A DNA stretch of 35,868 bases from contig JAFLEE010000056.1 in the NCBI GenBank assembly GCA_017302015.1, positions 1 through 35,868 of the forward strand, given 5' to 3'. The notes beneath the pieces are model-generated. The model saw nothing but the letters and a program-made list of their open reading frames with translations, did not search any database and had not been told where the DNA came from. The position numbers and the translations under genes were made by a program. Within the stretch, counting starts at the first letter, position 1. Every line of letters starts with the position of its first letter. The DNA comes from Spirochaetota bacterium. Lineage in GTDB: Bacteria > Spirochaetota > UBA12135 > COTS27 > JAFLEE01. Shown one piece after another: positions 1,187-32,214 of the stretch.

Positions 1187-2917
1187 TTATTCTTCAATAT
1201 TGACATATACATAATAGGCCCCGAGGGAGAGGCCCGCCACCCCCAAGAGCCAAGTCTGGAGCCGCGTCTCGCCCAAGGGAAGGTTCAGGGCAAAAGAGAC
1301 GCTCGCCGAATCGGGATCCAAGGGGGCCTCGACCTCTTGCCCCGCGATGGAAAGCCGGGCGTGCACCAAGGGCAGGGCCGCCCCGCCCTCGTAATAGGCG
1401 TGGTATTTCGGGTCGACTTCCCCCCGCCGCCAAGGCACGTCGCTGCCTTCGATGCCCCTCGCAAGCGCGTGGCCCGCCTCCCTCGGCCACCTCCTCAATT
1501 CGAAGCGGTAGCGGCCCGCGCGCTCCACCATGACCTCGAGGTAACTATTGCACCGCTTCCCGGCCCGGACGTCGGCCTGGCTCCAGGCGCACTCGCCCAC
1601 GTCTCCCCGCCAATCGTGGGATGTCAGGCAGGTTTCACCGGGGCCGCCGAGGGAGAGGGGGATGGTCTCATCCACCTGGGTCGAAACGAGCTCCCACCAT
1701 TTTTCGTACTCGGCCCGAAGGCGCGCCACCCGGGCCGGATCTCCCGCCGCCAAGTCGCGCCGCTGCTCCCGATCGGAGTCGACCTCGTAGAGTTCCTTCC
1801 CGTCGATGAGGCGCCAGGGGCCCTCCATCACCGCGCTCTGACGCCACTTCACGGGCTGCACCAGGCGCTGGCTATCGGTCACAACGGCGCGGGGCGGGAG
1901 GCTCCCGCCCTTAAGGAGCGGCGCCAGGCTACGGCCGTGGAAGGCGTGCGCCCCCGCATCCACCCCGCAGAGTTCGAGGAGCGTGGGCATGACATCCACA
2001 TTGGCGGTGAGGTCGGCGATGTCGCGGCTCGCTCCGATGCCGCCCGCGGGATAGCGCAGGAAGAACGGCACCCGATGCCCGCCCTCATAGGGGCTATTCT
2101 TGATGCCGCGCAGGCCCGCGTTCCATCCCCCCACCACGAAGCCCTCTCGGTCCAGGTCGCAACCCCCGCTGGTGCCGTTATCGGTCATAAAGATGAGGAT
2201 CGTGTCGCGCTCGAGGTCGAGGCGGCGCAGGTGCTCGCGTAAGTGCGCGAATTGGGCGTCGAGATTGGCGATCATCCCGTAGAAGCGCGCCCGGGATTCG
2301 GGGACCTTCCCCCGGTAGGGCTCGCTCCACAGGAGGGGAACGTTATAGGGGGCGTGGGGGGCGTTGGGGGCCAGGTAGCAGAAGAAGGGTTCGTCGCGGT
2401 GCTCGGCGATCCACGACTTGGCCTCGGCGAAGAACACCTCGGTGCAATAGCCGGTAAACGGCGTGGGCACCCCATCCACCGAATAGGTGTCGTCGAAATA
2501 ATCATTGCCCCAATGGTCCGGCGTCTGGGAGATGCCCCCGCCGCCGTGCACCACCACGCGCTCGAAACCACGGTCCTGCGGTCGGTAGGGGGTGGCGTCG
2601 CCGAGATGCCATTTGCCGAAGATGCCGGTGCGGTAGCCGTTCTCACGGAGGGCTTGGGGAAGGGTCCATTCGTTCTTCCGCAAGAGCGAACGGCCGCCGA
2701 TGGTATGCCAGACCCCGGTGCTATTGGCGTAATGCCCGGTCATGAGGCCCGCGCGGGTGGGCGCGCAGGTGGGGCCCACGTGGAAATCGGTGAAACGCAG
2801 AGCTTCGCCGTGGAACGCATCCAGCGCGGGGGTCTTCAAGGTCGGGTTCCCATGGCAACCGAGATCGCCGTAGCCCTGGTCGTCGGTGAGAACGAAGACG
2901 ATATTGGGTTTTCTCAT
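1187..2917 (-). CDS. sulfatase, family S1 (arylsulfatase A-like)
   Basis: Hydrolyses sulfate esters, probably on a glycan; substrate unknown. The 576-residue protein opens with the sulfatase core strand and metal site (TDDQG, D12-D13). It carries the formylglycine motif C51-A-P-T-R55, then K102 and H104 (GKWHLGD), H188 (PHAPY) and D246-N247 (TDNG). The motif has Thr where CxPSR has Ser, which is tolerated in the family. A maturase must convert Cys51 to formylglycine, and none is encoded here. After about residue 410 a C-terminal extension of some 165 residues looks like a beta-sandwich accessory domain. No signal peptide is visible, so it appears cytoplasmic unless the start is wrong. The ATG at 2917 overlaps the TGA of the upstream DUF4832 gene by 4 bp, with GGAG five bases before it, so the two are cotranscribed and coupled. 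Confidence 0.93.
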   Translation of the reverse strand: MRKPNIVFVLTDDQGYGDLGCHGNPTLKTPALDAFHGEALRFTDFHVGPTCAPTRAGLMTGHYANSTGVWHTIGGRSLLRKNEWTLPQALRENGYRTGIFGKWHLGDATPYRPQDRGFERVVVHGGGGISQTPDHWGNDYFDDTYSVDGVPTPFTGYCTEVFFAEAKSWIAEHRDEPFFCYLAPNAPHAPYNVPLLWSEPYRGKVPESRARFYGMIANLDAQFAHLREHLRRLDLERDTILIFMTDNGTSGGCDLDREGFVVGGWNAGLRGIKNSPYEGGHRVPFFLRYPAGGIGASRDIADLTANVDVMPTLLELCGVDAGAHAFHGRSLAPLLKGGSLPPRAVVTDSQRLVQPVKWRQSAVMEGPWRLIDGKELYEVDSDREQRRDLAAGDPARVARLRAEYEKWWELVSTQVDETIPLSLGGPGETCLTSHDWRGDVGECAWSQADVRAGKRCNSYLEVMVERAGRYRFELRRWPREAGHALARGIEGSDVPWRRGEVDPKYHAYYEGGAALPLVHARLSIAGQEVEAPLDPDSASVSFALNLPLGETRLQTWLLGVAGLSLGAYYVYVNIEE

Positions 2918-4384: not shown

Positions 4385-5206
4385 ATGGTCCGCGCAGTGT
4401 CGCCCCTCCCCCACCCCGCCTCGCCCCCGTTCCATGCTTGGCGGCTTTCCATCGATCTCGTGGGCCGGACCTGGGTGGATTCATCGTGGAATCGAAGGGT
4501 CTTTTTCTGGCCCTATGACCGCCTCTATCAATTCCTTTCCGGGAGGGCCACCGCGTTCCTGCGGGGCGGGGGGCGCCTCGCCATGCGCCCGGGGCGGCTG
4601 TATTGGCTCCCCGCCTTCATGCTTGCAGAAATCCGTTGTCCCGTGAGATCCGAACACCGGTTCATCCATTTCCGGTTCGCCGGCGGGGGGGAGCGCCTTT
4701 GGTACGGGGCCGCCCGCCCCGCCCTCGAGGCCCCCATCGTGGAGGCGCCGCTGATGGGCGCCCTCCTGGCCCACGTGGAGAAAAATTGGCAATCGAGCCG
4801 GGCGGAGGACACCATCGCCTGCGAGGCGGGGCTGCGCTTCCTGCTCTCGCCTTTCTTTAGCGGCACCTCGGCGCGGCTCCCCGAATTGGAGCGCTTTCGC
4901 CCCGTCCTCGAATGGGTGGAGGGCCATCTGGATGATCCGCCCAGCGTCGGCGACCTCGCCCGCATCATCGGCCTCGATGTGGACTATTTCTCGGTGCGGT
5001 TCCGGAAAACCCTCGGCGTCTCCCCCAAATCGTGGATCCTCTCGCGCCGGCTGCAAAAGGCGGCGGCCCTCTTGTGGGATACGCCCCTCAAGATCCGGGA
5101 AGCCGCGTTTGCCTGCGGCTGGGAGGACGAGGCCTATTTCACCCGGGTTTTCCACCAGCGCATGGGCTGCTCGCCCAGTGCCTACCGGAAGAGGCGAAAG
5201 GAGTAA
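4385..5206 (+). CDS. AraC-family transcriptional regulator
   Basis: A 273-residue regulator. Residues about 20-110 resemble an AraC cupin-type ligand-sensing domain (WLPAFMLAEI followed by HRFIHFRF). Residues about 170-270 are the AraC double helix-turn-helix: first HTH around DLARIIGLDVDYFSVRF, second around IREAAFACGWEDEAYFTRVF, closing with the family signature GCSPSAYRKRR. It is divergent from the DUF4832-sulfatase operon across a 70-bp gap, which it presumably controls in response to a sugar; that target is inferred from position. The ATG at 4385 is the first in frame; I see no good ribosome-binding site, so the start is less certain than the identity. Confidence 0.9.
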   Translation: MVRAVSPLPHPASPPFHAWRLSIDLVGRTWVDSSWNRRVFFWPYDRLYQFLSGRATAFLRGGGRLAMRPGRLYWLPAFMLAEIRCPVRSEHRFIHFRFAGGGERLWYGAARPALEAPIVEAPLMGALLAHVEKNWQSSRAEDTIACEAGLRFLLSPFFSGTSARLPELERFRPVLEWVEGHLDDPPSVGDLARIIGLDVDYFSVRFRKTLGVSPKSWILSRRLQKAAALLWDTPLKIREAAFACGWEDEAYFTRVFHQRMGCSPSAYRKRRKE

Positions 5207-5289: not shown

Positions 5290-5318
5290 TTGTGGAAGGG
5301 ACCACTTTGGGCTATACT
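5290..5318 (+). promoter_or_regulatory. promoter of the GntR/LacI regulator gene
   Basis: TTGTGG (5290-5295), 17-base spacer, TATACT (5313-5318). The layout is the same as at 6697-6725 upstream of the heparinase-like gene, including a palindrome that begins at the fifth base of the -10 box. Confidence 0.7.
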
Positions 5319-5330
5319 GCTCGGTAGCAG
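5317..5330. promoter_or_regulatory. operator, palindrome CTGCT-CGGT-AGCAG
   Basis: Perfect inverted arms CTGCT/AGCAG around a CGGT centre, overlapping the end of the -10 box and the expected transcription start. A near-identical copy (12 of 14 bases) sits in the same position before the heparinase-like gene (6724-6737). This is a classical repressor position, so the adjacent GntR/LacI protein is the natural candidate to bind both. Confidence 0.7.
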
Positions 5331-5331
5331 C

Positions 5332-5445
5332 ATGAGCCCTCTCTTTAGAAATTGGCCCACGGAGCACCCGGTCATTTACCCGACCCCAGGGGAAGACCCT
5401 GGGTCCATGGGCCGTGAAAGCCTCGGCCCCGAGCGCGCCCCGTGA
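5332..5445 (+). CDS. possible leader peptide, 37 aa, overlapping the regulator start
   Basis: An ORF that begins seven or so bases after the predicted transcription start and ends with a TGA overlapping the GTG start of the regulator (GTGA, 5442-5445). The peptide (MSPLFRNWPTEH... ending ERAP) is rich in Pro and Gly and has no recognisable motif. It contains the hairpin at 5385-5403. It could couple translation of the regulator, which itself has no good ribosome-binding site. It could also be an accident of a GC-rich leader. Confidence 0.3.
   Translation: MSPLFRNWPTEHPVIYPTPGEDPGSMGRESLGPERAP
5385..5403 (+). promoter_or_regulatory. hairpin in the regulator leader
   Basis: CCCAGGG-gaaga-CCCTGGG is a perfect 7-bp stem with a five-base loop, extendable across a bulged C. 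It lies about 60 bases after the predicted transcription start and 38 bases before the GTG. No T-tract follows, so it is more likely a translational or stability element than an attenuator. Confidence 0.4.
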
Positions 5446-6563
5446 AGGCCCGCAAAAGGCGGCGTCTCGCCCGACAGCCCGATTGCACCCTGCGCCATGC
5501 CTGGCTCGCCCGGGAATTGGAGGCGGAACTGAAGCGCGCGAACGCGGCCCCCCACGCGCCCTTCCTCTCCGAAAACCTCATGCGGCGGCGCTTCGACGTC
5601 AGCCTGCAGACCGTTCGTCGCGCGCTCCTCGACCTGGAACAGCGGGGCCTCATCTACCGCATCCCCCGCAAGGGCACCTTCGTCGCCCCGCCCCGAAAGC
5701 GCGCGCGGCTGCTCATCTACCTCCCCAATCTCCGCCCCCGGGAACGGGATTGGATCCAGGGGACCTCCGGCGATAGCGCCTTCTTCCTCAACGCCCTCGA
5801 TCGGGCCGCCGAGCCCGACCTTCCCTTCGAACTGAACTTCGAGGCCAAACGCGAGACGCTCCTGGCCCGGGTGGACGACCTTCCCCTGACGCTGCCGGGC
5901 CTGGCGGCGGTGGTCGTCTTCCGCGAATACGCGGCCCTGGACATCCTCGCGGCCCCCTTGGCGCGCCACGGCATCCCCCTCCTTTTCTACGGATCCTCCG
6001 CCCAACGCGCGCGTTGCCGGGGAATGGCGGGACTTTTTTACGATGAAACCCGGGTCACCCGCCTCGCCCTGGAACACCTATGGTCCCTCGGGCACCGGCG
6101 CATCGGCTGCGTCTGGGTGCCCACCCACCATGCCCAGATCGCCCGCCATCAGGCATGGCTGGCGTGGCACGAGGAGCGGGGCCTCCCCATCGAACCGAGC
6201 CTCGACCTTCCGGTGGAGTACGCCACCGTGGCCGATGCCGTGGCCACCCGCGACGGCGAACTCCGTCGAACGAAGCGACCGTGGACGGCGCTCTTTTCCA
6301 CCGATGACCAGTTCCTCCCTTATGTGCTGAGGGCATTACGGGCCCAGGGCACGATGGTCCCCGGCGATCTCAGCGTGGTGGGGGTCAATAATTCACCGGG
6401 CTGCCGCTGGTGCGACCCGATGCTCACCGCCGTCGATCTCCCCCTGGATGCGGACGGGCGCCGCATGGTCGAACTCGCCGCACTGGCCGTGCGGGGAGAG
6501 CGGCCCCATTGGGAAAGCGAGGTCAGCCTCGTCGTGCGCGAATCGACGGCGCCGGTGGCGTAG
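5442..6563 (+). CDS. GntR/LacI-type regulator (winged HTH plus periplasmic-binding domain)
   Basis: A 373-residue repressor-type protein. Residues 1-75 form a GntR winged helix-turn-helix: SENLMRRRFDVSLQTVRRAL is the recognition region and GLIYRIPRKGTFVAPP the wing. Residues about 85-370 match the LacI/GalR periplasmic-binding-protein fold, with TRLALEHLWSLGHRRIGCVW, FSTDDQFLPYVLRAL and GDLSVVGVNN as typical core elements. Proteins of this build (AraR-like) sense sugars. The start is the GTG at 5442, needed to include the full HTH. The same palindrome lies in its own promoter and in the promoter of the downstream heparinase-like gene, which indicates autoregulation and control of that gene. 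Confidence 0.9.
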   Translation: MKARKRRRLARQPDCTLRHAWLARELEAELKRANAAPHAPFLSENLMRRRFDVSLQTVRRALLDLEQRGLIYRIPRKGTFVAPPRKRARLLIYLPNLRPRERDWIQGTSGDSAFFLNALDRAAEPDLPFELNFEAKRETLLARVDDLPLTLPGLAAVVVFREYAALDILAAPLARHGIPLLFYGSSAQRARCRGMAGLFYDETRVTRLALEHLWSLGHRRIGCVWVPTHHAQIARHQAWLAWHEERGLPIEPSLDLPVEYATVADAVATRDGELRRTKRPWTALFSTDDQFLPYVLRALRAQGTMVPGDLSVVGVNNSPGCRWCDPMLTAVDLPLDADGRRMVELAALAVRGERPHWESEVSLVVRESTAPVA

Positions 6564-6696
6564 GCATCCCCCCCGACGAGCCTCCAAAGGATAGTCTGCG
6601 AGTTCATCCTGGATTTTCCCCGATCGAACCTTTCCGTCACCCCGTGGCTCGGCCCCAAAACGCCGATTCGCTCCGCCCAAAACGCGCGGGCCTCCC

Positions 6697-6725
6697 TTGT
6701 GCTCGAAAAAAAGAAGAACTAAACT
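6697..6725 (+). promoter_or_regulatory. promoter of the heparinase-like gene
   Basis: TTGTGC (6697-6702), 17-base spacer, TAAACT (6720-6725). It gives a start near 6732 and a leader of about 36 bases to the ATG at 6768. It matches the regulator promoter at 5290 in spacing and in the overlapping palindrome. Confidence 0.65.
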
Positions 6726-6737
6726 ACTTGGTAGCAG
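6724..6737. promoter_or_regulatory. operator copy CTACT-TGGT-AGCAG
   Basis: Differs from the site at 5317-5330 at two of 14 bases and occupies the same position relative to the -10 box. The arms CTACT/AGCAG carry one mismatch, with an alternative perfect inner palindrome CTAC-ttg-GTAG. Confidence 0.65.
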
Positions 6738-6767
6738 ATGACATCCCCCCGCACCCCGAGGTATCCC

Positions 6768-9700
6768 ATGACCCGACGCGCCGGTTTCCTCGCCTGTCTT
6801 TTGGCTCTTCCCCTTCTGGCCGACCGCGTGCTCCTCGACGAGGTCGGCAGCGAAAAAGCCTGGTCCGGCCTCGAGGTAGATGCCAGCAAAGCCAAGGAGG
6901 GCCGCGCGGGATGGAAATCCCTCGGTTCGGGAAGGGGCACGATCGCCGTCTTCCTCCAGCCCGCTGCCGACTGGAGCGCCGCCGCGGGTTTCCGCTTTTG
7001 GCTGTGGTCCTCGGCCAATCTGGGGTCGGAAGTGATCCTCCAGGTCACCGTGCCGGGTCCCAACGGCCATGGCGATTATTGGATGCACCGGTTCAAGGTC
7101 GATTGGGCGGGTTGGAAGCAGGTGGAGGTGTCGAGGTCCCAATTCACCAAGTCGCGCAACCCCGATGGGTGGAAGGGGGTCACTTCCGTCGGGCTTCTCA
7201 CCGCCGGTTGGGGGCTTAAAGCCAATCCCGAATGGCAGGCGGCTTTGGATCAATTCACGGTGCTGGGCGAGGTTCCCTTCGCGACCGCCGTCGTCGCTCC
7301 CGCGCCAACCGGCGCATCCCCCACGCCCCCTCCTCCCGCTCCAAATACTGCCGTAGCCGTAAAACCGGCGCAGGCGGCCCCGCCCACCCCTGAGGTCTGC
7401 CGAGTGCTGTTGGACGAGGCCGACAGCGCGGCCGGTTGGGCCAACGTGGAGGCGGATGCCAGCTTGGCGAAGACGGGCCAGGTGGGATGGCGATGGAAAG
7501 GCACCGCGGCCCTCACCCGCAGTTTTTCCCCGAAAGAAGACCTCAGCAAGTACAACGCCTTGCGCCTGTGGGTGCATTCCGCCGTCGCGAACAAGCAAGA
7601 CATCATCTTCCAGGTGGTCAACCCCGGCACCAACGGGAATAGCGATTATTGGAACACCACCTTGAAGGTCGACCACGCGGGATGGAAGCACCTCCTCATC
7701 CCCCTCGACCGCCTCAACAAAACCCGCAGCCCCCGCGACATGAAAGGGGTGAGCGCCATCGCCTTCAATCTTTTTTGGGGAGGGATCACCATCAAGCCCG
7801 ACACGAAACTGGCCATCGACCGCGTGGAATTGGTGGAGGGCCCGCGCCAGGCCTCCGCCCCCGAAACGCCCGTCGCCGGGGCGCGCGCGCCCCGATCTTT
7901 TCCCAAGGAGGTCAGCAATGTCAATGTGGACGACCTCACCCTCGCGGATTGGGGCGGGCGCCTCGCCCTGGCGAATCTTCCCTGGGACGCCATGATCAAG
8001 GAAGCGGGCCTCGACCCCGATGTGGCCACCGCCTTCTCGGATTGGAAGAAGCAGGCGGCCAATTGGTCCCTGGGAGAAATCATCCGCCGGACGTATAAGC
8101 TCGCGGATGTGCCCAAGGGCCGCCTCGATAGCCGGGTGGGCGCCTGCGGCCCGAACGCCGAACTCTTCGCCCTCGCCATGGACGACTGCGCGGTGTGGGG
8201 GATGCTCGGGCGCCAGCTCATCCCCGCCGCCCTCGTGGTGCGCCGCGACGGCGACCGCGCCGCCTTGGAATACCTGACGAAGCAGCTGGGCGAGATCGCC
8301 ACCTGGTGGCCCATCCAGAGGCCGGGTTGGACCCAATTCACCGCGACGAGCAAAATGACGGGGGAGCACGACGGCCCCTGGCTCGCCGAGGGCTACGCCA
8401 TGGTGAGCCTCGCCTTCACCCTCGACATCCTGGGCGACCGGCTCGATGCGAAGGTCCGCGGCGAACTCCGCGCCCTGCTCCAGAAGGAGATCGATTGGAT
8501 CGTGCGGGCGTGGAAGGAAAAAATCCCGTGGTACGTGAAAGCCAAGGCCTACCGCAGCAACCAATGGGCCCTGCCCAGCGCCGCCCTGGCCCTGGCCTGC
8601 CTGGCCTTGGGCGACGAGCGGAATCGGCCGGCCTACGAGTTCGCGGCCCTGAACCTCGCCAAGATGCTCGCCGCCCAGGGCGAGAGCGGCAGTTTCGCCG
8701 AGGGCTACGCCTACGCCTCCATGACGATGGACTACGTCATGCCCGCCCTCTGGGCCATGGACCGGGCGGGGGATAAGCGCCTGGGGCAAATCCCCTTCCT
8801 CGTGAAGTACGCGACCTGGAGCCACCAGATGACCCTCCCGGGAAAGACGGTGGTCAACCACAGCGATTGCGGGGCGACCTGGGTCCCCGCCACGCCGGGG
8901 CGGCACCTGATGCTGGCCAACCTGGTCTCGAAGAGCCCGCAAGACCTCTGGGCCATGGAGTACATTTACCTCTACTACAATATGGCCGACCCCTTCTCCA
9001 TCATCTACAAGGCGGAATTGGCGAAGCTACCGGCCCTGCGCGAGCCGCTCCCCGCCAGCGCTTTCTTCGCCAATATGCAACTCGCCGTCTGGCGCACCGA
9101 TTGGGACCTCGAAAACGCCATGGCCGTTTGGGCCAAGGGCGGCACCCTCAACGATTTCCACATCCATAACGACCAGGGGCAGGTCACGGTCATGAACGGC
9201 ACCGAGCCGATCCTCATCGACGCGGGCAGCGTGGCCTACGGCGACCCCGAGTACGACGCGAAGTTCGCCTGCAGCGCGGGCCATAACGTCCTCCAGACCC
9301 CGACCGGGCTCAAGCGGATGCACCAGATGATCCGCGCGCCGCTGGCTGTGGAGCGCTCCGACGCCCAGGGCGGCGCCCTCGACATCGATATCTCCGAAGC
9401 CCAGCCCGAGGTCAAGTCTTGGAAACGCCGGGTGGAATGGGCGGCCCAGGGCCGCGTCCGCGTGGCCGACGAGGCCGAACTCTTCCAACGGAAAGCGGCG
9501 GGCGATGAATGGTTCCGCTGGCACACCGGGGCCCTCGCCGCCCCGATGATCACCGGCGAGGGGAAGGCCTGGCAGGTCGCCTGGGGAAGCAATCGCCTCG
9601 CCCTCGAGGCGGACCGGAAGATCTCGGTGGAAGCCCTCCCCTGGCGCAGCGCGCTCCTCAAATCCAATTTTGTCGTCGTCGTCAAGGCGGGGGAAGCGGG

Positions 9701-10301
9701 GGACCATCTGCGGCTCCAGTCCACGGTGAGTTTCCCGCGGCGCCTCTCGCGCCCCCTGAAGGCCCTCCCGAACTACGGGGAATACCTGAAAGGCCGCACC
9801 CCCGGGGCGTCGGGGAAGCCCATCCTGCTCCAGGGCGAAAGCATGGTCACCCCCGGCGGCGGCATGCGCGCCGTGACCACGAAGGTCGGCGCCAAGACCG
9901 CCATCACGGGGTGGGATGCCATGGGCAGCCGCCTCGAGGCGACCGTTGAGATCCCCGCCGAGGGCTGGTACTATTTCGGCATCAAGTACTGCGCGGCGAG
10001 CCTCGCGCTTCGGGCCGTGGAGATCGACGGCCAAGTGCCCTTCGCCGAGGCCGATCGCCTCTCCCTCTCGGCCACCCTGCCCCACCCGACGAGCGACGGC
10101 TTCGCCAATAATGCCGATGACTGGTCCTTCGTGTTATTGGGGGCCCGGGCGGACCGCCCCGGCCTGCTCTTCAAACTCGCCAAGGGCACGCATCGCATCG
10201 CCTTCATCAACCGAGCCAACGCTTGCAATGTGGATTATTTCGCCCTGGTGCCCGAAGGGCAGGAAGGGAAGGCTTCCCGGGAGCGGCTGGACGCGGAATA
10301 G
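6768..10301 (+). CDS. heparinase II/III (alginate lyase)-like protein with three carbohydrate-binding-like modules
   Basis: A 1177-residue exported protein, probably an uronide polysaccharide lyase. The ATG at 6768 is preferred to that at 6738 because GAGG lies just upstream and a signal peptide (RRAGFLACLLALPLLA) follows. Residues about 20-160 and 205-355 are two homologous beta-sandwich modules, alike in the block DYW...VD-AGWK. A Pro/Ala-rich linker (about 170-205) separates them. Residues about 385-700 fit the alpha/alpha-toroid of heparinase II/III. Residues about 720-1000 fit its beta-sandwich, with the typical FHIHNDQG (near 796) and GHNVLQ (near 836). Residues about 1040-1170 resemble a CBM6/35-type module. 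Binding and lyase functions follow from family resemblance; substrate is unknown. It is controlled by the operator shared with the upstream regulator and is followed by a URO-D gene. Confidence 0.85.
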   Translation: MTRRAGFLACLLALPLLADRVLLDEVGSEKAWSGLEVDASKAKEGRAGWKSLGSGRGTIAVFLQPAADWSAAAGFRFWLWSSANLGSEVILQVTVPGPNGHGDYWMHRFKVDWAGWKQVEVSRSQFTKSRNPDGWKGVTSVGLLTAGWGLKANPEWQAALDQFTVLGEVPFATAVVAPAPTGASPTPPPPAPNTAVAVKPAQAAPPTPEVCRVLLDEADSAAGWANVEADASLAKTGQVGWRWKGTAALTRSFSPKEDLSKYNALRLWVHSAVANKQDIIFQVVNPGTNGNSDYWNTTLKVDHAGWKHLLIPLDRLNKTRSPRDMKGVSAIAFNLFWGGITIKPDTKLAIDRVELVEGPRQASAPETPVAGARAPRSFPKEVSNVNVDDLTLADWGGRLALANLPWDAMIKEAGLDPDVATAFSDWKKQAANWSLGEIIRRTYKLADVPKGRLDSRVGACGPNAELFALAMDDCAVWGMLGRQLIPAALVVRRDGDRAALEYLTKQLGEIATWWPIQRPGWTQFTATSKMTGEHDGPWLAEGYAMVSLAFTLDILGDRLDAKVRGELRALLQKEIDWIVRAWKEKIPWYVKAKAYRSNQWALPSAALALACLALGDERNRPAYEFAALNLAKMLAAQGESGSFAEGYAYASMTMDYVMPALWAMDRAGDKRLGQIPFLVKYATWSHQMTLPGKTVVNHSDCGATWVPATPGRHLMLANLVSKSPQDLWAMEYIYLYYNMADPFSIIYKAELAKLPALREPLPASAFFANMQLAVWRTDWDLENAMAVWAKGGTLNDFHIHNDQGQVTVMNGTEPILIDAGSVAYGDPEYDAKFACSAGHNVLQTPTGLKRMHQMIRAPLAVERSDAQGGALDIDISEAQPEVKSWKRRVEWAAQGRVRVADEAELFQRKAAGDEWFRWHTGALAAPMITGEGKAWQVAWGSNRLALEADRKISVEALPWRSALLKSNFVVVVKAGEAGDHLRLQSTVSFPRRLSRPLKALPNYGEYLKGRTPGASGKPILLQGESMVTPGGGMRAVTTKVGAKTAITGWDAMGSRLEATVEIPAEGWYYFGIKYCAASLALRAVEIDGQVPFAEADRLSLSATLPHPTSDGFANNADDWSFVLLGARADRPGLLFKLAKGTHRIAFINRANACNVDYFALVPEGQEGKASRERLDAE

Positions 10302-10370: not shown

Positions 10371-11348
10371 ATGGCAATGAAGGTCGATTTTCAACCCGCC
10401 GTCTACGAGCACGCCGCCCGCTTCATCGGTCGGCGCCCCTTCGAGGTCTCCCAGGATGCCCGACTCATGGCCGAGGCCCACGCCGCCGCCTTCGAGGCCT
10501 ACGGGCATTCACCGGTGATTTGCGGCATCGATCTTTACGCCGTGGAACCCGAAGCCTACGGCGCCCAGGTGCCCGATCCCGGCGGCGATGGGGTACCGGT
10601 GATTTCGCCCCACCCCATGTCCGAGATCGACGAACTCCTCTCCCTTAAGGCCCTCGACCCCCTGAAGGCGGGCCGCCTTCCCCTGGTCCTCGAGGCCGCG
10701 GAACTCCTTCGCGGACGCCTGCCATCGGGGACCGATGTGCGCATCCCGATCGGAGGCCCATTCAGCATCGCGGCGAACCTACTCGGCTTCGAGAACCTCC
10801 TCCTCGGTCTCGCGGAAGACCCGGAACTCCTCGCGCAAGCTCTCGGGCGACTCGCCCGGAACCAACTCTCCTGGGCCGAAGCCATTCTCAGCCGGGGATT
10901 CGGCGTGAGTATCTTCGAGAGCGCCGCGGCCCCGCCCCTCGTTTCCCCGGCCCAATTCCTCCACACCGATGCCCCGGCCCTGGGCCTCCTCTGCCGAGGC
11001 ATCGCCGAGCGCTCCGGGAAAACTCCGGGCCTCATCCTCGGCGGAGACGTGAAGGATTTGGTGGATGCCCTGGCGGGAACGGGGGCGGGATTCCTGATCT
11101 GCCCCGCGGAGACCGACCAGGAAGCCTTCATGGCCGCCGCCAAACGCCATCCGGGGATCCGCATCCGGCTCAACCTCGACGCGGCCCTCGTGTCCCGCGG
11201 CAGCGCGGCCGAACTTGAAATCGCCTTTCGTAATGCGATCGGCCTCATCCGGGACCACGGAAACGCGGCCCTCGGAACCGGCGTCCTTCCCTATGGGTTC
11301 GAGCCGAGCCGCCTTCGCCTGCTCTCAGAACTGGCCCAGAGCTTCTAA
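10371..11348 (+). CDS. uroporphyrinogen decarboxylase (URO-D)-like protein
   Basis: A 325-residue TIM-barrel protein of the URO-D superfamily, which includes haem enzymes and corrinoid methyltransferases. Family landmarks are SQDARLMAEAH near the N-terminus, IPIGGPFSIAANLLGFENLL, the ESAAAPPLVSP segment, and NLDAALVSRGS near the end. The HxC zinc site of MtaA/MtbA-type methyltransferases is absent: the matching strand reads LILGGDVKDL. It also lacks the N-terminal signature expected of true HemE. It is therefore neither a standard methyltransferase nor a likely haem enzyme; relatives often occur in glycan-utilisation loci. The start has AGGA eight bases upstream. It probably forms a unit with the lyase gene. 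Confidence 0.8.
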   Translation: MAMKVDFQPAVYEHAARFIGRRPFEVSQDARLMAEAHAAAFEAYGHSPVICGIDLYAVEPEAYGAQVPDPGGDGVPVISPHPMSEIDELLSLKALDPLKAGRLPLVLEAAELLRGRLPSGTDVRIPIGGPFSIAANLLGFENLLLGLAEDPELLAQALGRLARNQLSWAEAILSRGFGVSIFESAAAPPLVSPAQFLHTDAPALGLLCRGIAERSGKTPGLILGGDVKDLVDALAGTGAGFLICPAETDQEAFMAAAKRHPGIRIRLNLDAALVSRGSAAELEIAFRNAIGLIRDHGNAALGTGVLPYGFEPSRLRLLSELAQSF

Positions 11349-11363: not shown

Positions 11364-12530
11364 TTATCGCTGCCTTGCGGCCTTCTCGAACTCAGCCATC
11401 ATGGCCGAATAGGGCCCGAAGAACGCCCCGCTTGCTTGCGGCGTGCCATCCTCCTTGAGTGGCACGGTGCGGTTTAGGAGCAGGGAACAGGGATCAAATT
11501 GGGTATTGCCCCATTGCCCATGGGGATAGAGCATGACCTTCACCCCAAAGGCCGAACCCAGGGCGAAGCTGCGAGCGATAAAGCCGGCGTCATAGGGCGC
11601 CAAGGCGATGAAGTCTTCCCACTGGGCCAAGGCGACCCGATTGCTGTGGCACCGCGAAACGAATTGCCGGGCCGTCATGGGCGGCAGGTCATAGCGCCGG
11701 CGAAACCCGCCGTCGAGGGGCCGGTTCAGCCACTCCGTTCCCGCGGGCGCCTGGCTCCACTCGCAGACGAGGACCGGTTTCCCCGAACGCTTCCCCATAA
11801 AGTCGAGGGCGGCAGCGAAGGCGTCGGCGTCCTTCACGTGGGCGTGGTAATCGATGGCCTCGATGTCGGCGTTCGTCGCGGCCCAGTCGAGGAGTGGGAG
11901 CATTTTCTCCGCGACATTAGCCTCTAATTCCCCCCGGGCCGCCTGGTCCATGCCGTAGACGCCCGGCGAGACCACCACCAGTTTGGCGAGCGACGCATTC
12001 GTCTTTTTTTCGGCCTGGGCCCGCGCGGCGAGTTCCCCGTAGAACCGCAGCGCGTGGGGAACGCCCCCGATCCCCGGCTGGAAATCGGCCTCGGCGCGGT
12101 CGAAGGTCGGTTCATTGTCGAGGGTGACCCACGTCAGATGGGGGCCATAGCGGCGCAAGAAAACCGCGAAATCATCCTGCAAGCGCCGCCAGGGCGCCGA
12201 GCCCTCGGGGGGAAGCGCCTCGCCGGGCTTCATCCAAGCGAAGACGGTGGCCACCACCCGCACCCCCGCCCGGTCATACGTTTCAATGTCTGTTAGGTTT
12301 CGGGGCGAGTCTTCGATGCGCGAGGGGGGAGGGACCTTCCCCTGGTCGATATTGGAGAACCAGATGGGGAGGAAACGGCCATAGACGAGGATGCGCACGG
12401 CCTTGGGCCTCATCCTCAGCGCGTTTTCGATCTGGCGGGGCTGATGGAGGCCGGGAAGGGTCTGGCCGATCAGAGCCGATACCCCGAGCGCGATGAAGAG
12501 CGCCAGAACCCTCGCCAATGGGCGCCTCAT
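11364..12530 (-). CDS. exported glycosidase-like protein (clan GH-A-type barrel)
   Basis: A 388-residue protein with an N-terminal signal peptide or anchor (about residues 5-23, VLALFIALGVSALIG). The rest reads as a TIM barrel. WVTLDNEPTF places a Glu at 140 after strand 4 (NEP, the clan GH-A acid/base signature) and VLVCEWS places Glu257 as the likely nucleophile on strand 7. The exact family cannot be named by eye. Its start overlaps the stop of the upstream AraC gene by 4 bp (ATGA), so regulator and enzyme are in one minus-strand operon. It ends 15 bp from the convergent URO-D gene, and a short imperfect inverted repeat in that gap might serve both as terminator. Confidence 0.75.
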   Translation of the reverse strand: MRRPLARVLALFIALGVSALIGQTLPGLHQPRQIENALRMRPKAVRILVYGRFLPIWFSNIDQGKVPPPSRIEDSPRNLTDIETYDRAGVRVVATVFAWMKPGEALPPEGSAPWRRLQDDFAVFLRRYGPHLTWVTLDNEPTFDRAEADFQPGIGGVPHALRFYGELAARAQAEKKTNASLAKLVVVSPGVYGMDQAARGELEANVAEKMLPLLDWAATNADIEAIDYHAHVKDADAFAAALDFMGKRSGKPVLVCEWSQAPAGTEWLNRPLDGGFRRRYDLPPMTARQFVSRCHSNRVALAQWEDFIALAPYDAGFIARSFALGSAFGVKVMLYPHGQWGNTQFDPCSLLLNRTVPLKEDGTPQASGAFFGPYSAMMAEFEKAARQR

Positions 12531-13348
12531 GGCCGCCGCGCGAAGCGCTTGGGCGAGATGCCCGCGATCTTCTTGAAGGCGTGGCCGAAATGGTACTCGT
12601 CGAAGAATCCGAGTTGGGCGGCGAGGCCGCGGGCGGGAAGGGAGGGATCGCTCAGGAGCATCTTTTGGGCCAGGGCGATGCGGCGGGCGAGGAGGAATTG
12701 GCCCACGCTCTTCCCCGTCTCGGCCTTGAACCTTCGGATGAGGGTGCGCCGACTCATGCCCACGCGGGCGCCGAGGGCGTCCATATCGGGGGCCCGATCG
12801 ATGCGGGCCTCGATGGCCTCCACCACCCGGGCGATGGGCGATTCGCCATCGGAGGCGATGCCTTCCCCCCGGGCCACCAATTCGGCGAAGAGCAGGTGCA
12901 GCCAGGCATCACGCTGGAGGCCGTGGGAAGCCGAGGAGGCCGCCGCCCCCGCGAGGATCTGGCGGCACCATCCCCGGGGAAGGGGGTTCCCCCCCGTCGC
13001 GCAAAGGAGCGGGAGGTGGACGGCGCCGCCCAGTGGGGCGAGTTCCTCGACGATGCGGTCGCCCGGGCGGGCCGTGAAGGCGATGGCGATCTCTTCATAG
13101 GTCTGGCGCGTGTCGAGGACGTAGCGCGCCCCCTTCGCGTGCACCCGCAGGGTCTCGGGGACCACGGCGTACTCGAAGCCGCCCCCGGCGATATCGCGGC
13201 GGCCCCGCAGGGCGTAGATGAGGAAATGCTCGTTGGGCTCGAAGAGCAGGCGGTCCTTCCCGAGGCCGTCGAAGATCGGGGGATGGCGGGAGAGGCGCAC
13301 GCTCGCTACGCGGCGCTCGGCGGGGGCCGTGATCCGCAGGTATTTCAT
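12527..13348 (-). CDS. AraC-family transcriptional regulator
   Basis: A 273-residue regulator. Residues about 15-120 are a cupin-like sensor domain (LLFEPNEHFLIYALRG). The C-terminal 100 residues are the AraC DNA-binding domain: first HTH around ALGARVGMSRRTLIRRFKAETG, second around PARGLAAQLGFFDEYHFGHAFKK, closing with AGISPKRFARR. I start it at the ATG at 13348. An upstream in-frame ATG at 13405 would lie before the TATAAT box at 13363-13358. That leaves only about nine bases between -10 and ATG, suggesting a leaderless message. It is cotranscribed with the glycosidase it overlaps, and divergent from the ADP-ribosylglycohydrolase gene. Confidence 0.9.
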   Translation of the reverse strand: MKYLRITAPAERRVASVRLSRHPPIFDGLGKDRLLFEPNEHFLIYALRGRRDIAGGGFEYAVVPETLRVHAKGARYVLDTRQTYEEIAIAFTARPGDRIVEELAPLGGAVHLPLLCATGGNPLPRGWCRQILAGAAASSASHGLQRDAWLHLLFAELVARGEGIASDGESPIARVVEAIEARIDRAPDMDALGARVGMSRRTLIRRFKAETGKSVGQFLLARRIALAQKMLLSDPSLPARGLAAQLGFFDEYHFGHAFKKIAGISPKRFARRP

Positions 13349-13357
13349 CGTGGCGCA

Positions 13358-13363
13358 ATTATA
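13358..13363 (-). promoter_or_regulatory. -10 box TATAAT, nine bases before the AraC start
   Basis: Perfect TATAAT on the minus strand. The -35 position at 17-bp spacing reads TGCACG, a weak match. Transcription would begin within three bases of the start codon. Confidence 0.45.
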
Positions 13364-13386
13364 CATTTTCCGGACCTGCCCGTGCA

Positions 13387-13415
13387 TTGCCCTTTCCCCG
13401 GGCATCCCCTACTAT
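13387..13415 (+). promoter_or_regulatory. promoter of the ADP-ribosylglycohydrolase gene
   Basis: TTGCCC (13387-13392), 17-base spacer, TACTAT (13410-13415). The predicted start near 13422 leaves a 30-base leader containing GGGAG (13437-13441). It is back-to-back with the AraC promoter. Confidence 0.5.
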
Positions 13416-13453
13416 TCCTGCGGGGCCGGGAGCCCCGGGAGAACGTGACGCCC

Positions 13454-14968
13454 ATGAACCATATGAACCGCGACGAGTTTTTCGACAAGGTCCACGGCTG
13501 CTGGATGGGGAAGAACATCGGGGGCACCCTGGGCGCCCCCATGGAGGGGAAGCCCGAGATCAACGCCGTCGATTTCTACCTCCAAGACCTGAAGAAGGGC
13601 GCCGTCCCCAACGACGACCTCGACCTCCAACTCGTGTGGTTCCAGGCCGTGAAGCAGTACGGCCTCTCGCGCATCACCCCGAAGGTCCTCGCCGAATATT
13701 GGATCAGCGTCGTCAACGGGCCCTGGAACGAGTACGGCGTGGGCCGCACGAACCTGAAGATGGGCCTCCTTCCCCCCCTCTCCGGCGCCTGCAATAACGA
13801 GCGCTGGAAATGGAGCAACGGGGCGTGGATCCGCTCGGAGATCTGGGCCTGCCTGGCCCCGGGCGACCCCGACCGCGCCATCGAATACGCCTATATGGAC
13901 GCCTGCGTCGACCACGCGGGCGACGGCATCTACGCCGAACTCTTCACCGCCGCCCTCGAGTCCGCGGCCTTCGTGGTGTCCGACCTGCGCACGCTCATCC
14001 GCATCGGCCTCAGCAAGATCCCCGCCGAGTGCCGCACGGCCCGCTGCGTGTCCGTCGCCGTGGCCCAGCACGAGGCCGGCAAAGACTGGAAGGCCGCCCG
14101 CGAAGCCGTGCTGCGCGAGAGCGCCGACCTGGGCTGGTTCCAGGCCCCCGCCAATATCGGCTTCACGGTCATCGGCCTCCTCTACGGCGGCGGCGATTTC
14201 GGGAAGAGCGTCTGCCTGGCGGTGAATTGCGGCGACGATACGGATTGCACCGGCGCCACCGCGGGCGCCGTCCTCGGCATCATCCAGGGGCGCAAGGCCC
14301 TGCCCGCCAAATGGACCGAGCCCGTGGGCGAATCCATCGTGAACGTGTGCATCACCCCGTTCATGGGCGCGCCCAAGACCCTCACCGACCTGGCCACCCA
14401 GGTCGCCGAAGAGGCCATCCACCAGGGCTCGGGCTTCCTCGCCCGCGCCCATGGCCGCGCCCTCGGCGTGCCGCCCCTGACGATCGGCGACGGTCCGACC
14501 TCCATCACCCCCGCGCTCCTCGCCCGCCTGCCCGACAGCGCCGCGGCGGCCAAGATCTGGGCCCGCAGCCCCTATGTCCTCGATTTCGAGGTGCCCGGCC
14601 TCGCCTGCGCCGTCGACTATATCGACGGGCCCCAGGTCTCCTGCGGCGTCGAGAAAAAGATTAAGGTCCGCATTGGCGTGGACGCCCTCCTCTGCCTCTA
14701 CGAAAAGGTGGTCAGCCTCGAATGGCGCCTGCCGCCGGGGTGGTCCATGCCCTCGGGCCAGCGCCGAGAGGTCTACCTCGGCTCCTACGATAGCCGCCCC
14801 GAGATCCCGTTCACCCTGGTGCCCGGGCCCATGGCCGAGGGTTTCACCTTCCTCGAACTCGTGGTGCGCGAGAACGGGCGCCGGGCTCCGACGATCCTCG
14901 CGGTGCCCTTCCAGGACCGGGAGACCGTGCAGTACTCCCACAAGGAAGCCATCCCGATCAAAATCTAG
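13454..14968 (+). CDS. ADP-ribosylglycohydrolase family protein
   Basis: A 504-residue member of the ADP-ribosyl-[dinitrogen reductase] hydrolase/ARH superfamily, whose members release ADP-ribose or related groups using a two-metal site. The N-terminus (GCWMGKNIGGTLGAPMEG, residues about 15-32) is typical. Metal ligands are predicted in PNDDLD (D54, D55, D57) and GDDTDCTGA (D261, D262, D264). The domain ends near residue 370 and is followed by about 130 residues of a beta-rich C-terminal domain absent from small ARH enzymes. Versions with this extension occur in carbohydrate loci, where they may act on N-ribosides or nucleoside-like sugars; that is inference. I prefer the ATG at 13454, 12 bases after GGGAG; GTG at 13445 and ATG at 13463 are alternatives. 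The reading frame is open far upstream by chance, but the promoter lies just ahead. Confidence 0.88.
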   Translation: MNHMNRDEFFDKVHGCWMGKNIGGTLGAPMEGKPEINAVDFYLQDLKKGAVPNDDLDLQLVWFQAVKQYGLSRITPKVLAEYWISVVNGPWNEYGVGRTNLKMGLLPPLSGACNNERWKWSNGAWIRSEIWACLAPGDPDRAIEYAYMDACVDHAGDGIYAELFTAALESAAFVVSDLRTLIRIGLSKIPAECRTARCVSVAVAQHEAGKDWKAAREAVLRESADLGWFQAPANIGFTVIGLLYGGGDFGKSVCLAVNCGDDTDCTGATAGAVLGIIQGRKALPAKWTEPVGESIVNVCITPFMGAPKTLTDLATQVAEEAIHQGSGFLARAHGRALGVPPLTIGDGPTSITPALLARLPDSAAAAKIWARSPYVLDFEVPGLACAVDYIDGPQVSCGVEKKIKVRIGVDALLCLYEKVVSLEWRLPPGWSMPSGQRREVYLGSYDSRPEIPFTLVPGPMAEGFTFLELVVRENGRRAPTILAVPFQDRETVQYSHKEAIPIKI

Positions 14969-20560: not shown

Positions 20561-20608
20561 ATGAGTGTCTCGACTCAAAACATTTTTTTGAACCAACAGG
20601 ATTTCCCC

Positions 20609-22096
20609 ATGCTCCCCGATGAATCCCGCATCCTGCGCGATCGCCTCGTGCCCGCCCCGGCCCAGTTCCACTTGGCTTCGGGGAATCCCCTCCGCATCCA
20701 GGACGATTGCGAGGTTTCCCTCTGCACCGATTCGGACGCCGCGGAAAGTCCCGCGGAAACGCGGCGGCTTTTCAAAACATATTGGGGTGCCAGGCCGAAA
20801 CTTCGCCCCGGGGCCCCGAGCGGCGCGCCCCTGGAAAAGGAAGCCTACCGACTCGAGGTGAAGCCCGACGGGATCGTTCTTCGATCCGGCGGCCTCGCCG
20901 GGGTGCGCCATGCCTTAAGCACCCTGCGCCAATTGGCGGAAGCCGAGCGGGGGGTCGAGAAGCACGCCCATTACCTGCTGGCGCCCTGCCGGATCGAAGA
21001 CGCCCCCGCCCTTCCCTTCCGTGGCGTGCACCTGTGCTTCTTCCCCGAAACCGAGGTCTTCGAGATCGAGAAGAACCTGCGCCTGGCGGCCCAGTACAAG
21101 TTCAACCACGTGGTGCTGGAATGCTGGGGCATCTTCCCGTGGAAGAGCCATCCCGATTTCTCCTGGGCCGACCGGCGCGTCTCCCGAAGCGATTTAGCGC
21201 GCCTAGTCCGCCTCGCGGGGGAATTGGGCCTCACCCTGATCCCCCAATTCAACCTCCTCGGCCACGCCTCAGCCTCCCGCGCCATGGCGGGCAAGCACGC
21301 GATCCTCGATTTTAAACCCTCCCTCCAATCCCTCTTCGAGCCCGATGGCTGGTCGTGGTGCCTGACCAATGGAAGAACCCGCGGCATCCTCACCGACCTC
21401 GTCGTCGAACTCCACGAGTTCTTCGGCCGGCCGCCCTATTTCCACATCGGGTTCGATGAGGCGGACAATCTGGGCACCTGCGCCGCGTGCCGCAAGCGCG
21501 AGAGCAAGGCGCTGGTGAAGGAGCACCTGCTGTATTTCCACGGCCTCCTGGCCTCGCGCGGGGCGAAAACGATCCTCTGGCACGATATGCTTGTGCAGAA
21601 CGACGACCCGCGCTGGAAGGGCGGCTATACCGCGTGCGGGCTCCCCGAGCAGGGCCTCTCCGAACTCCACCGCGAACTCCCCAAAGACCTCATCCTCGCC
21701 GATTGGCAATACGATTACCCCTCGAAAGACGGGGCGGAGCCCTCCTGGCCCACCACCCGCTTCTTCAAGGAGCAGGGGTTCCCCCTCCTCGTCTGCCCCT
21801 GGGACAACGCCAAGGGCATCCGTAGCCTGGGCGAGTTGGCCCGCAAGGAGGGCCTCTTCGGCCTTCTCGCGACGACCTGGCACCACCAGCACGACGAGGA
21901 ACTCTGCCGCATCTACCACCACGCCGCGAAGGCCTCCTGGGAAAAGGAACCCGATTGGTCCACCAGCCACCTCGTGCAGCGCCTGATGTTCGCCCACCAC
22001 CAGCGCCTCACCGGTTGGGATATGGGCGTGAAACACTACCGGAAGACGGGGTCCGCCCAGTACCAATTGCCGCAGCACACCTGGCCCTCGCGCTGA
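20609..22096 (+). CDS. GH20-like hexosaminidase family protein
   Basis: A 495-residue protein. Residues about 10-115 match the N-terminal GH20b-type domain (LVPAPAQFHLASG..., then GVRHALSTLRQLAE). Residues about 130-430 form a TIM barrel with FRGVHLCFFPE, LGLTLIPQFNLLGHA and HIGFDEADN. D283-E284 is the Asp-Glu pair that in GH20 enzymes orients the substrate acetamido group and acts as acid/base. It resembles the GH20-related subgroup found in glycan loci, and beta-N-acetylhexosaminidase activity is likely but unproved. No signal peptide is seen. The start at 20609 has AGGA upstream and lies after the predicted transcription start of a consensus promoter. Confidence 0.85.
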   Translation: MLPDESRILRDRLVPAPAQFHLASGNPLRIQDDCEVSLCTDSDAAESPAETRRLFKTYWGARPKLRPGAPSGAPLEKEAYRLEVKPDGIVLRSGGLAGVRHALSTLRQLAEAERGVEKHAHYLLAPCRIEDAPALPFRGVHLCFFPETEVFEIEKNLRLAAQYKFNHVVLECWGIFPWKSHPDFSWADRRVSRSDLARLVRLAGELGLTLIPQFNLLGHASASRAMAGKHAILDFKPSLQSLFEPDGWSWCLTNGRTRGILTDLVVELHEFFGRPPYFHIGFDEADNLGTCAACRKRESKALVKEHLLYFHGLLASRGAKTILWHDMLVQNDDPRWKGGYTACGLPEQGLSELHRELPKDLILADWQYDYPSKDGAEPSWPTTRFFKEQGFPLLVCPWDNAKGIRSLGELARKEGLFGLLATTWHHQHDEELCRIYHHAAKASWEKEPDWSTSHLVQRLMFAHHQRLTGWDMGVKHYRKTGSAQYQLPQHTWPSR

Positions 22097-24437: not shown

Positions 24438-26588
24438 TCAATTTCCCCGTTTCTTCTTCTCGATCTCCTCGAGTTCGAGGGGGTGGTCTTCCCGCATCTC
24501 TTTCTCGCTGAGGGTGCCCTTCCAGAAGGCCAGGTTGATCGGGAAGGTTCCGGGGCTGAGGATCACGAAATAGAAATGCCACACGAGGATCGAGAGGGTG
24601 GCGAGCCAGGCCTCGTAATAGTGGATGGTGCGGGCGGCGTCCCAGCCGAGCTTGGTCAGGAGGCCGAGGAAGGTATTGTCGAACCAGAGGATGAACCCGG
24701 TGGCCGCCATGACGAGGGTGCCCCAGAGGAGGGCCCAGTATTCGCTCTTTTCGACGTAACTAAAGCGCCCGAAGCGCGGCTTCTCCTTCCCCAAGCCCAG
24801 GTTGAACCGCACCACGGCGAAGGCGTCGGCGAAATCCTTCTTGCGGGGGCGGAGATCCCGCAGGAGTTGCCGGCCCCGGGGGACGAAGACCACGTAATAG
24901 AGGTGGAAGAGCCCCACGCCGAGCATCAGCACCGCGGCCACCCGGTGCACTGCGCCCCGGGCGCCGAAGAGGGTCGGGCTTAAGTCGCGGAGGAAGGCGA
25001 CCCAGCCCGCCTCGGGGAATTTCAGCAGGAACCCGGTGAGGACGAGGGCGACGAAGCTCAGGAGGAAGACGCCGTGCTGGAGGCGCTCGCTCAAGCTCAT
25101 GCGCAGGTAGAGCCCGGTGCCGACGGGGGCCGCGGAAGCCTGCCCGCGGCGGAGGGCCAATTCATGGCGGGCTTTCTTCATGAAGTCGATGAGGTTGTGG
25201 AAGAACATCCCCCCGACGACCAGGAAGATGAAGAGGAGATAGAGGGTCGCGATCCAATAGAGGAGCGGTTGCGCGCGGGAGCGGGTGTCGACGTGCACCG
25301 CGCCCTTGGTGAAGCGCTCGTTGGCGCCGGGATGGCATTTACCGCAGGTCTGCGCCAGATGGCCGGGGGCGATGGTCGAGAGGGGGTCTTTCGAGGGGCG
25401 GATATTGTGCACCCCGTGGCAACTGGCGCAATGGGCCACGTCGACGGAGCCGGCCTTGCCCGCCAGCCCGTGGAAGCTCTCGGCGAAGGTTCGGGAGCGG
25501 TTGCTATTGAGGTCGTACTTCTTGGAGAGTTTCACCGAGGAATGGCAGGGCGCGCACACCCGGGTGGAGAGGTTGGCCACCTCCGTGCGCGCCTGGGGGT
25601 CGGTGTGGATGAGGATATCGTGCTCGCCGTGGCAATCGGTGCAGACGGGGGAGTCGGCGGCGCCCCGGGCCGAAGCGACCCCGTGGACGCTCGCGTCGTA
25701 TTCCCGGGCCACGGCGGGGTGGCATTTGGCGCAGGTGCGGGAGAGGTGGCCCTTGCTCGTCGCCGCCGACGGATCGCGGGCGTTCTTCATGTCGTGGCTG
25801 CCGTGGCAATCGATGCAGGTCGCCGCGTTCGTATTGCCCCGCAGGAGCGCCAGGCCGTGCACGCTCTTCTCGTAGGAGGCGAAAAAGGCCGCGGCGGCCA
25901 GGCTCCCGTTCTGCTTGCGGGCGTTCTCCACATGGCAGGCGAGGCAAAGTTTTTCCTGGGCCACCCGGAAGGCCAGCCGGTCGCCCGCTTTCGTGCCGGG
26001 CGGCACCCGCAGCCGGTGGCAACTCACGCAATCCGGCGCTCCGCCCCGGTTTCCCTTCAGGGCCAGGCCGTGGGCCGATTCGTCGAATTGGGCCCGCGCC
26101 TTCAGGTGGCACGAGCCGCAGAGCGCGACCATGGAGGCTTCGCCCGGCTTGCCCGGACCCCGGGAGCGGGCGATGACATGCTTGCCATGGCAAAGCACGC
26201 ACGAGGCCGAGGGCGCGGCCTGGGCGCCGAGGTTCCACTTGGCGGCGGGGTGGGCGGCGTGGATCTCGGAAAGATTGGTATGGCACCCCATGCAGGAGAC
26301 CGCCGACATCGGAGCGCGGTGGGGCATTTTCTCCCCGTCGAAGCCGAGGTGGCAGCTCGTGCAAGGAAGCCCGCCATGGGCCGATTTTCCATAGGCCCCC
26401 CCTGCGACGTGGAGCGAGAGGGTTTTGCCGTCGCGTTGTAGGGTCTGGCTGGGATCATCGTGGCAAGCCAAGCAATCCGCGCTCGTCTGCCCGGGAAAAG
26501 CCAGCCCCCCGAAGGCGATCAGAAATCCAAGCGCGAGGCCGGAGAAACCATTGGACAAATTGGATAATGCCACGTTTTTTTGACCCAT
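24438..26588 (-). CDS. 13-haem cytochrome c fused to a b561-like membrane domain
   Basis: A 716-residue electron-transfer protein. A signal-type segment (about 15-35) exports the N-terminal half. From residue about 39 to 440 there are 13 CxxCH haem-binding motifs, beginning CLACH, CTSCH, CMGCH, CVLCH and ending CASCH, CGKCH, many preceded by distal His in SVHG or SAHG. Residues about 455-700 form a di-haem cytochrome b561-like domain with four to five helices (PLLYWIATLYLLFIFLVVGG, HGVFLLSFVALVLTGFLLKF, VHRVAAVLMLGVGLFHLYYVV and a terminal IHYYEAWLATLSILVWHFYFVIL) carrying likely haem-ligand His. This layout fits a quinol-oxidising or quinone-reducing membrane module passing electrons to periplasmic haems. 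Start at 26588: TATAAT lies 12 bases upstream, no ribosome-binding site is seen, and upstream ATGs would precede the promoter. Confidence 0.92.
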   Translation of the reverse strand: MGQKNVALSNLSNGFSGLALGFLIAFGGLAFPGQTSADCLACHDDPSQTLQRDGKTLSLHVAGGAYGKSAHGGLPCTSCHLGFDGEKMPHRAPMSAVSCMGCHTNLSEIHAAHPAAKWNLGAQAAPSASCVLCHGKHVIARSRGPGKPGEASMVALCGSCHLKARAQFDESAHGLALKGNRGGAPDCVSCHRLRVPPGTKAGDRLAFRVAQEKLCLACHVENARKQNGSLAAAAFFASYEKSVHGLALLRGNTNAATCIDCHGSHDMKNARDPSAATSKGHLSRTCAKCHPAVAREYDASVHGVASARGAADSPVCTDCHGEHDILIHTDPQARTEVANLSTRVCAPCHSSVKLSKKYDLNSNRSRTFAESFHGLAGKAGSVDVAHCASCHGVHNIRPSKDPLSTIAPGHLAQTCGKCHPGANERFTKGAVHVDTRSRAQPLLYWIATLYLLFIFLVVGGMFFHNLIDFMKKARHELALRRGQASAAPVGTGLYLRMSLSERLQHGVFLLSFVALVLTGFLLKFPEAGWVAFLRDLSPTLFGARGAVHRVAAVLMLGVGLFHLYYVVFVPRGRQLLRDLRPRKKDFADAFAVVRFNLGLGKEKPRFGRFSYVEKSEYWALLWGTLVMAATGFILWFDNTFLGLLTKLGWDAARTIHYYEAWLATLSILVWHFYFVILSPGTFPINLAFWKGTLSEKEMREDHPLELEEIEKKKRGN

Positions 26589-26600
26589 TCTAAGCGGGGG

Positions 26601-26632
26601 ATTATAACTTGCCAGCCTTGAGTGTGTGGCAA
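26601..26632. promoter_or_regulatory. divergent intergenic region: TATAAT and inverted repeat TTGCCA-N12-TGGCAA
   Basis: A minus-strand TATAAT (26606-26601) lies 12 bases before the cytochrome start. Next to it perfect inverted hexamers TTGCCA (26609-26614) and TGGCAA (26627-26632), 18 bp apart centre to centre, lie between the cytochrome gene and the divergent acyltransferase gene. They could be a dimeric regulator site. Read on the minus strand the distal arm resembles a -35 box, but at 20 bp the spacing is too long. Confidence 0.4.
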
Positions 26633-26695
26633 TCGACGTCCCCGGCCCATCGTAGACTTCCCGACCGGAAGGACCCCCCATCGATCGGAGGAACC

Positions 26696-32140: not shown

Positions 32141-32208
32141 TGGCCCACGGGGCGGGCGCGCCGAACGCCTGAACCGACGCCCCCAATGCAATCGGGCCGC
32201 CGCCGGCC

Positions 32209-32214
32209 TATACT
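32209..32214 (+). promoter_or_regulatory. possible -10 box TATACT before the second sulfatase
   Basis: TATACT matches the -10 box of the promoter at 5290 but has no good -35 partner at 16-18 bp. It would give a leader of about 125 bases. Confidence 0.25.

Follow-up and report, generated by a model that had tools for sequence, protein, structure and literature searches.

A palindrome repeated over two promoters as the probable operator of a GntR/LacI-type regulator linked to a heparinase-type lyase

AraR operators are A/T-rich, of the ATTTGTACGTACAAAT type, and overlap the promoters of the regulator's own gene and of sugar-utilisation genes, and the LacI operator is a CG-centred palindrome. 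Among LacI-family regulators 72% are autoregulated, and the GntR/IdnR pair provides a precedent for paralogues that share sites after duplication (PMC4052901). The operator consensus of the GntR family is a GT-Nx-AC core in most sites, with exceptions noted (PMC4494728). On the enzyme side, the PL35 lyase GAGase VII employs Tyr241 and His397 as its general acid/base pair, with Asn187 as the neutralising residue (PMC12088678).

The locus compared here with these systems lies in a 35,868-nucleotide stretch of DNA (the whole stretch analysed, hereafter the window), in which a regulator gene and a lyase gene are preceded by the same promoter element.

5290..5318 (+), promoter of the regulator gene: TTGTGG 5290-5295, 17-nt spacer, TATACT 5313-5318, read from the sequence and one of four genome-wide module matches
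5317..5330 (+), putative operator copy 1, CTGCTCGGTAGCAG, covering the final two bases of the -10 box and kept at the paralogous locus
5442..6563 (+), regulator gene: GntR winged helix and LacI-type sugar-binding domain, 373 aa, GTG start (Pfam; PDB relatives)
6697..6725 (+), promoter of the lyase gene: TTGTGC 6697-6702, 17-nt spacer, TAAACT 6720-6725, read from the sequence and a module match
6724..6737 (+), putative operator copy 2, CTACTTGGTAGCAG, read from the sequence and a module match
6768..10301 (+), secreted polysaccharide lyase of the heparinase II/III type, 1177 aa, with one or more CBM_11-like domains at its N-terminus (Pfam, PDB)
10371..11348 (+), URO-D/MtaA-like gene, 70 nt after the lyase gene (Pfam PF01208)

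Judging from sequence, the repeated element probably serves as operator for the GntR/LacI-type repressor whose gene lies at 5442-6563; this repressor would regulate its own gene and be released by a sugar.

In Pfam, the N-terminus of the regulator matches GntR (PF00392, E 1.6e-9, residues 23-81) and the C-terminus a Peripla_BP_3/LacI-type sensor (PF13377, E 2.6e-26, residues 211-369). In the PDB the DNA-binding part is related to AraR, YvoA and DasR and the second part to LacI-family sensors, and the GTG start is backed by alignment with the ATG start of a paralogue. By architecture the protein fits the AraR-type hybrid class, and the two domains bear out the earlier note's description of the regulator as AraR-like. 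Searches for relatives yielded a single 26%-identical protein among 393 genomes of the phylum (E<=1e-20), one unrelated 25% match in a scan of GTDB contigs, and none in viral contigs. Because no orthologue turned up in the phylum, GTDB or viral collections, no orthologue footprint was possible.

Both window modules have the boxes, the 17-base spacer and the 14-base palindrome first described for them, and the two 14-mers, each beginning at base 5 of the -10 box, differ at exactly two positions (3 and 6), as had been reported. Copy 1 overlaps the regulator's own promoter, and the overlap claimed for both the regulator and lyase promoters is supported. The -35 boxes of both copies share three of six bases with TTGACA, which is why a strict sigma-70 promoter scan called neither promoter. 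The palindrome arms are perfect at site 1 (5+5) and pair at four of five positions at site 2, and when the promoter region was shuffled an arm of equal length appeared in 19% of shuffles. The GntR-family core GT-Nx-AC was sought inside ACTRCTYGGTAGYRG, where GT is followed by AC in none of the four sites of the genome. A hairpin, CCCAGGGGAAGACCCTGGG, is present in the leader of the regulator transcript (window 5385-5403) and has no T run.

Taken alone, the window pair is not significant, because ~12,000 14-mer pairs with <=2 mismatches are expected in window-sized sequence of the same composition. Within the window there is no third copy of the 14-mer with <=2 mismatches, and matches with three mismatches are at chance level. 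An expectation of thousands of such pairs is what a chance likeness of two weak promoters within the window would have in its favour. Such a likeness is contradicted by the distribution of the site across the genome and by its conservation across a duplicated locus.

We scanned the genome (5.43 Mb, 165 contigs) with patterns of increasing length. The window-derived 14-mer has two exact matches, one match at one mismatch and 22 at two mismatches. The sole one-mismatch match (C122:17221) is upstream of the regulator's closest paralogue; it reads TTGATT-17-TATACTGCTTGGTAGCGG and lies ~85 nt before that gene. A two-mismatch match on the minus strand (C35:44282) reads TTGACA-17-CATACTACTTGGTAGTGG and precedes a gene encoding a secreted, NPCBM-domain protein of ~799 aa, and the other two-mismatch matches are without such promoter context. 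A 14-mer taken from the window alone, then, recovers both other promoter sites among its 23 non-window matches (<=2 mismatches). Once its flanks are added, the pattern WWACTRCTYGGTAGYRG matches perfectly at four sites and nowhere with one mismatch, and with two or more mismatches only noise appears. The full module, TTG-N20-YAWACTRCTYGGTAGYRG, matches perfectly four times in the 5.43-Mb genome, with no match at one to three mismatches. A first-order Markov model predicts 0.018 occurrences of the 15-mer and 5e-6 of the full module, values that serve as a guide only, the patterns having been fitted to the sites. The 15-mer occurs four times in this genome versus three times in total across 392 other genomes of the phylum, and all three of those occurrences are within open reading frames.

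It is this genome-wide distribution, not the window pair itself, that places the module above chance level. Four full modules and nothing at one to three mismatches rule out a chance pair, to which we assign a negligible probability. A dispersed repeat is ruled out as well, the flanks of the four sites being unrelated. The four sites sit in three loci and precede two regulators, the window lyase and the secreted NPCBM protein; of the 16 Hepar_II_III_C genes in the genome, one lies within ~4 kb at each locus. The genome-wide scan proposed in the earlier note has now defined a candidate regulon of four sites. The statement that no third copy exists holds within the window and fails genome-wide, and the proposal of one main target proved too narrow, since the site also stands before another regulator gene and another gene for a secreted protein. 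Among the papers listed in a literature search on the motif string TACTTGGTAG, all were unrelated.

All four copies show TTG, a 17-nt spacer and a -10-like YAWACT, as might an extended promoter of a particular sigma factor without operator function. However, conservation extends ~12 nt past the -10 box, and sigma factors are not known to read that far. The hexamers are also of the ordinary sigma-70 type, only four copies occur in 5.43 Mb, and the common targets are two regulators and secreted-protein genes. The reach of conservation beyond the -10 box leads us to reject a promoter of this kind alone, and we regard the explanation as very improbable.

Further evidence comes from C122, where the entire regulator-lyase pair is present as a diverged duplicate.

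C122:17218-17234, putative operator, overlapping the promoter of the paralogous regulator as in the window
L113:10836-11075, small HTH_3 gene between the C122 regulator and the C122 lyase
L113:11112-13685 (G000:C122), lyase copy, 67% identical to the window lyase and without the operator

The regulators are 66% identical, making this the closest paralogue of the window regulator, and the lyases are 67% identical over 785 aa. In a blastn comparison of the two loci the coding DNA alone aligns (~70-72% identity) and the noncoding flanks do not. Upstream of both regulators there is one long conserved block, TATACTGCTYGGTAGCRG, with the TTG at equal distance. The survival of the module before the C122 regulator amid diverged flanks is, on our reading of the alignment, a footprint of selection. 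Before the C122 lyase there is no site, the best match having five mismatches. In this paralogous pair, in other words, the site is kept at the regulator promoter and absent at the lyase promoter, and no orthologues were found for the same comparison. The recognition region, DVSLQTVRRALLDLE, is identical between the two regulators, and cross-regulation is therefore likely. Sites may be shared between the two paralogues or contested by them, and it is not certain which repressor acts where.

Other GntR/LacI-type genes of the genome offer a second comparison. Three of them have a TTGACA-17 promoter and a palindrome of their own starting from bases 4-6 of the -10 box, in each case stronger than the window palindrome and distinct from it.

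L032, palindrome GTCCTATATAGGAC
L033, palindrome CATTCTTTAAAGAATAAAGAATG
L035, palindrome TGTCATAGGACACTATGACA

A fourth gene (L055) has its palindrome, TGGTGCACGATGATGGTGCACCA, slightly further downstream, and a LacI-type gene at C100 has a like arrangement with the palindrome AGTCCCATATGGGACT. A distinct palindrome at or just past the -10 box of a TTGACA promoter is found at L032, L033, L035, L055 and L129. Searches for further sites with the L032 and L035 palindromes gave mostly noise, with one similar promoter before another LacI-type gene. Elsewhere, L128 (G000:C98:22351) has a TTGACA-17-TATAAT promoter followed by a perfect palindrome, TTGCACCGGTGCAA, resembling an operator of the LacI type. 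It thus seems that several regulators each have an operator of their own, set over their own promoter at a standard position, and that the window motif is the one belonging to the C118/C122 pair. The autoregulation predicted in the earlier note is strengthened, still as a prediction, by the C122 locus and by the like architecture at these other GntR/LacI-type genes. Since a palindrome occupies the same position in the TTGACA-17 promoters of several of them, these data suggest that operators of this genome's GntR/LacI-type regulators can be assigned from sequence alone.

These comparisons also bear on whether the element belongs to a third-party regulator that governs both GntR/LacI genes and the two secreted-protein genes. 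Such a regulator might be the product of the AraC-type gene at 4385-5206 or an unlinked factor. The AraC-family gene is directly upstream on the same strand, and the motif is without the GntR consensus core. However, the site follows the GntR/LacI gene into C122, with no AraC-type gene among the C122 neighbours examined, and the other GntR/LacI genes have their own, differing palindromes at the same place. Inverted-repeat symmetry over the -10 box and start also suits a dimeric repressor better than an AraC-type activator, as such activators usually bind direct repeats upstream of -35. We consider a third-party regulator unlikely, and return to the GntR/LacI-type repressor as the preferred owner of the site.

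The predicted target in the window, the lyase gene, more likely starts at 6768 than at the ATG at 6738, 30 nt upstream, because GAGG precedes 6768 and a signal peptide follows it, and the ATG at 6738 adjoins the operator. The protein has Pfam matches to CBM_11, Hepar_II_III_C and Lyase_N. Its nearest structure in the PDB search is the PL35 glycosaminoglycan lyase 8KHW (E 4.8e-7), in a local match over residues 593-810. In that alignment Tyr649 and His798 correspond to the catalytic Tyr241 and His397 of GAGase VII, and Gln599 to the neutraliser Asn187, with the adjoining Asn598 kept; residue numbers in PMC12088678 exceed those of the aligned chain by 14. The heparinase II/III fold, the PL35 match and the kept Tyr and His agree with the large polysaccharide lyase first proposed here. 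The similarity, local and weak overall, is too weak for PL35 membership or substrate assignment. As the lyase matches PL35 with equivalents of the catalytic Tyr and His, a uronate-containing polysaccharide would be a sensible substrate class, from which a specific substrate does not follow. A single-sequence structure prediction of the lyase core (pLDDT 38) was set aside.

In the C122 lyase, residues at the PL35-aligned catalytic centre have changed (FHIH to PRPH and RSNQW to GETLW), among them those aligned with the catalytic His and the Asn/Gln. With these residues lost, the C122 copy is probably a derived and inactive enzyme. It is possible, if rather doubtful, that the two diverged repressor-lyase units keep one operator through which the repressors regulate one another as well as a shared group of secreted enzymes, and that the one lyase to have lost both operator and probable catalytic residues may be a non-catalytic binder.

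The URO-D/MtaA-like gene is possibly co-transcribed with the window lyase, given the same strand and the short gap; if so, it would be unusual to find a methyltransferase of this type alongside a polysaccharide lyase. The window further contains two sulfatase genes (1187-2917 (-) and 32186-33820 (+)), a GH20-type hydrolase gene (20561-22096 (+)) and an ADP-ribosylglycohydrolase-domain gene (12518-14968 (+)), a set consistent with a sulfated-polysaccharide-degrading lifestyle. At 24438-26681 (-) it encodes a large protein in which multihaem cytochrome c3/c7 domains are joined with a cytochrome b561 domain.

In the mechanism we propose, ACTRCTYGGTAGYRG would be bound across the -10 box and transcription start by this repressor or by either member of the 66%-identical pair. 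Since the site runs from the end of the -10 box across the position where transcription is expected to start, the bound dimer would keep RNA polymerase off by simple promoter occlusion. The repressor's own gene would be shut down in this way, as would the gene for the secreted lyase and, at the distant loci, those for the paralogous repressor and the secreted NPCBM-domain protein. A sugar-type ligand in the LacI-like domain would release the repressor; the most plausible candidate is a lyase product, either an oligosaccharide or a uronate-derived compound. We infer binding of the site by the regulator, repression and not activation, and a uronate-type effector. Counting against the proposal are the short, imperfect palindrome, the lack of a GT-N-AC core, the lack of a site at the C122 lyase, the failure to find an orthologous pair and the strict scan that called neither promoter. 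Nonetheless, the analysis provides a concrete candidate operator for a GntR/LacI-type regulator in a genome for which the sets searched contained no close relative, together with a compact candidate regulon centred on a heparinase-type lyase.

Of the known systems, Bacillus subtilis AraR has the same two-domain architecture, a GntR winged helix with a LacI-type sugar-binding domain. The sequence relation is distant (E 5e-5 for the AraR DNA-binding domain in the PDB and E 6e-9 for the sensor domain), the operator here is ACTRCTYGGTAGYRG whereas that of AraR is of the ATTTGTACGTACAAAT type, and the targets here are secreted polysaccharide-acting proteins. The window motif also departs from the GntR family in having no GT-N-AC core, a feature of the site and not of the protein. 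Compared with PL35 GAGase VII (8KHW, PMC12088678), the window lyase has equivalents of the catalytic Tyr and His (Tyr649/His798), but Gln599, next to the kept Asn598, aligns with Asn187 and there is an extra N-terminal CBM_11/Lyase_N-like region. The likeness to local LacI/GalR regulons is in organisation: these are small and autoregulated, with a palindrome over the promoter, carbohydrate-gene targets and duplicates sharing sites. In contrast to them, the DNA-binding domain here is a GntR winged helix, not that of LacI, and the operator is unrelated to LacI's. Overall, this is probably a local sugar regulon of an ordinary kind, with a candidate operator that is previously undescribed.
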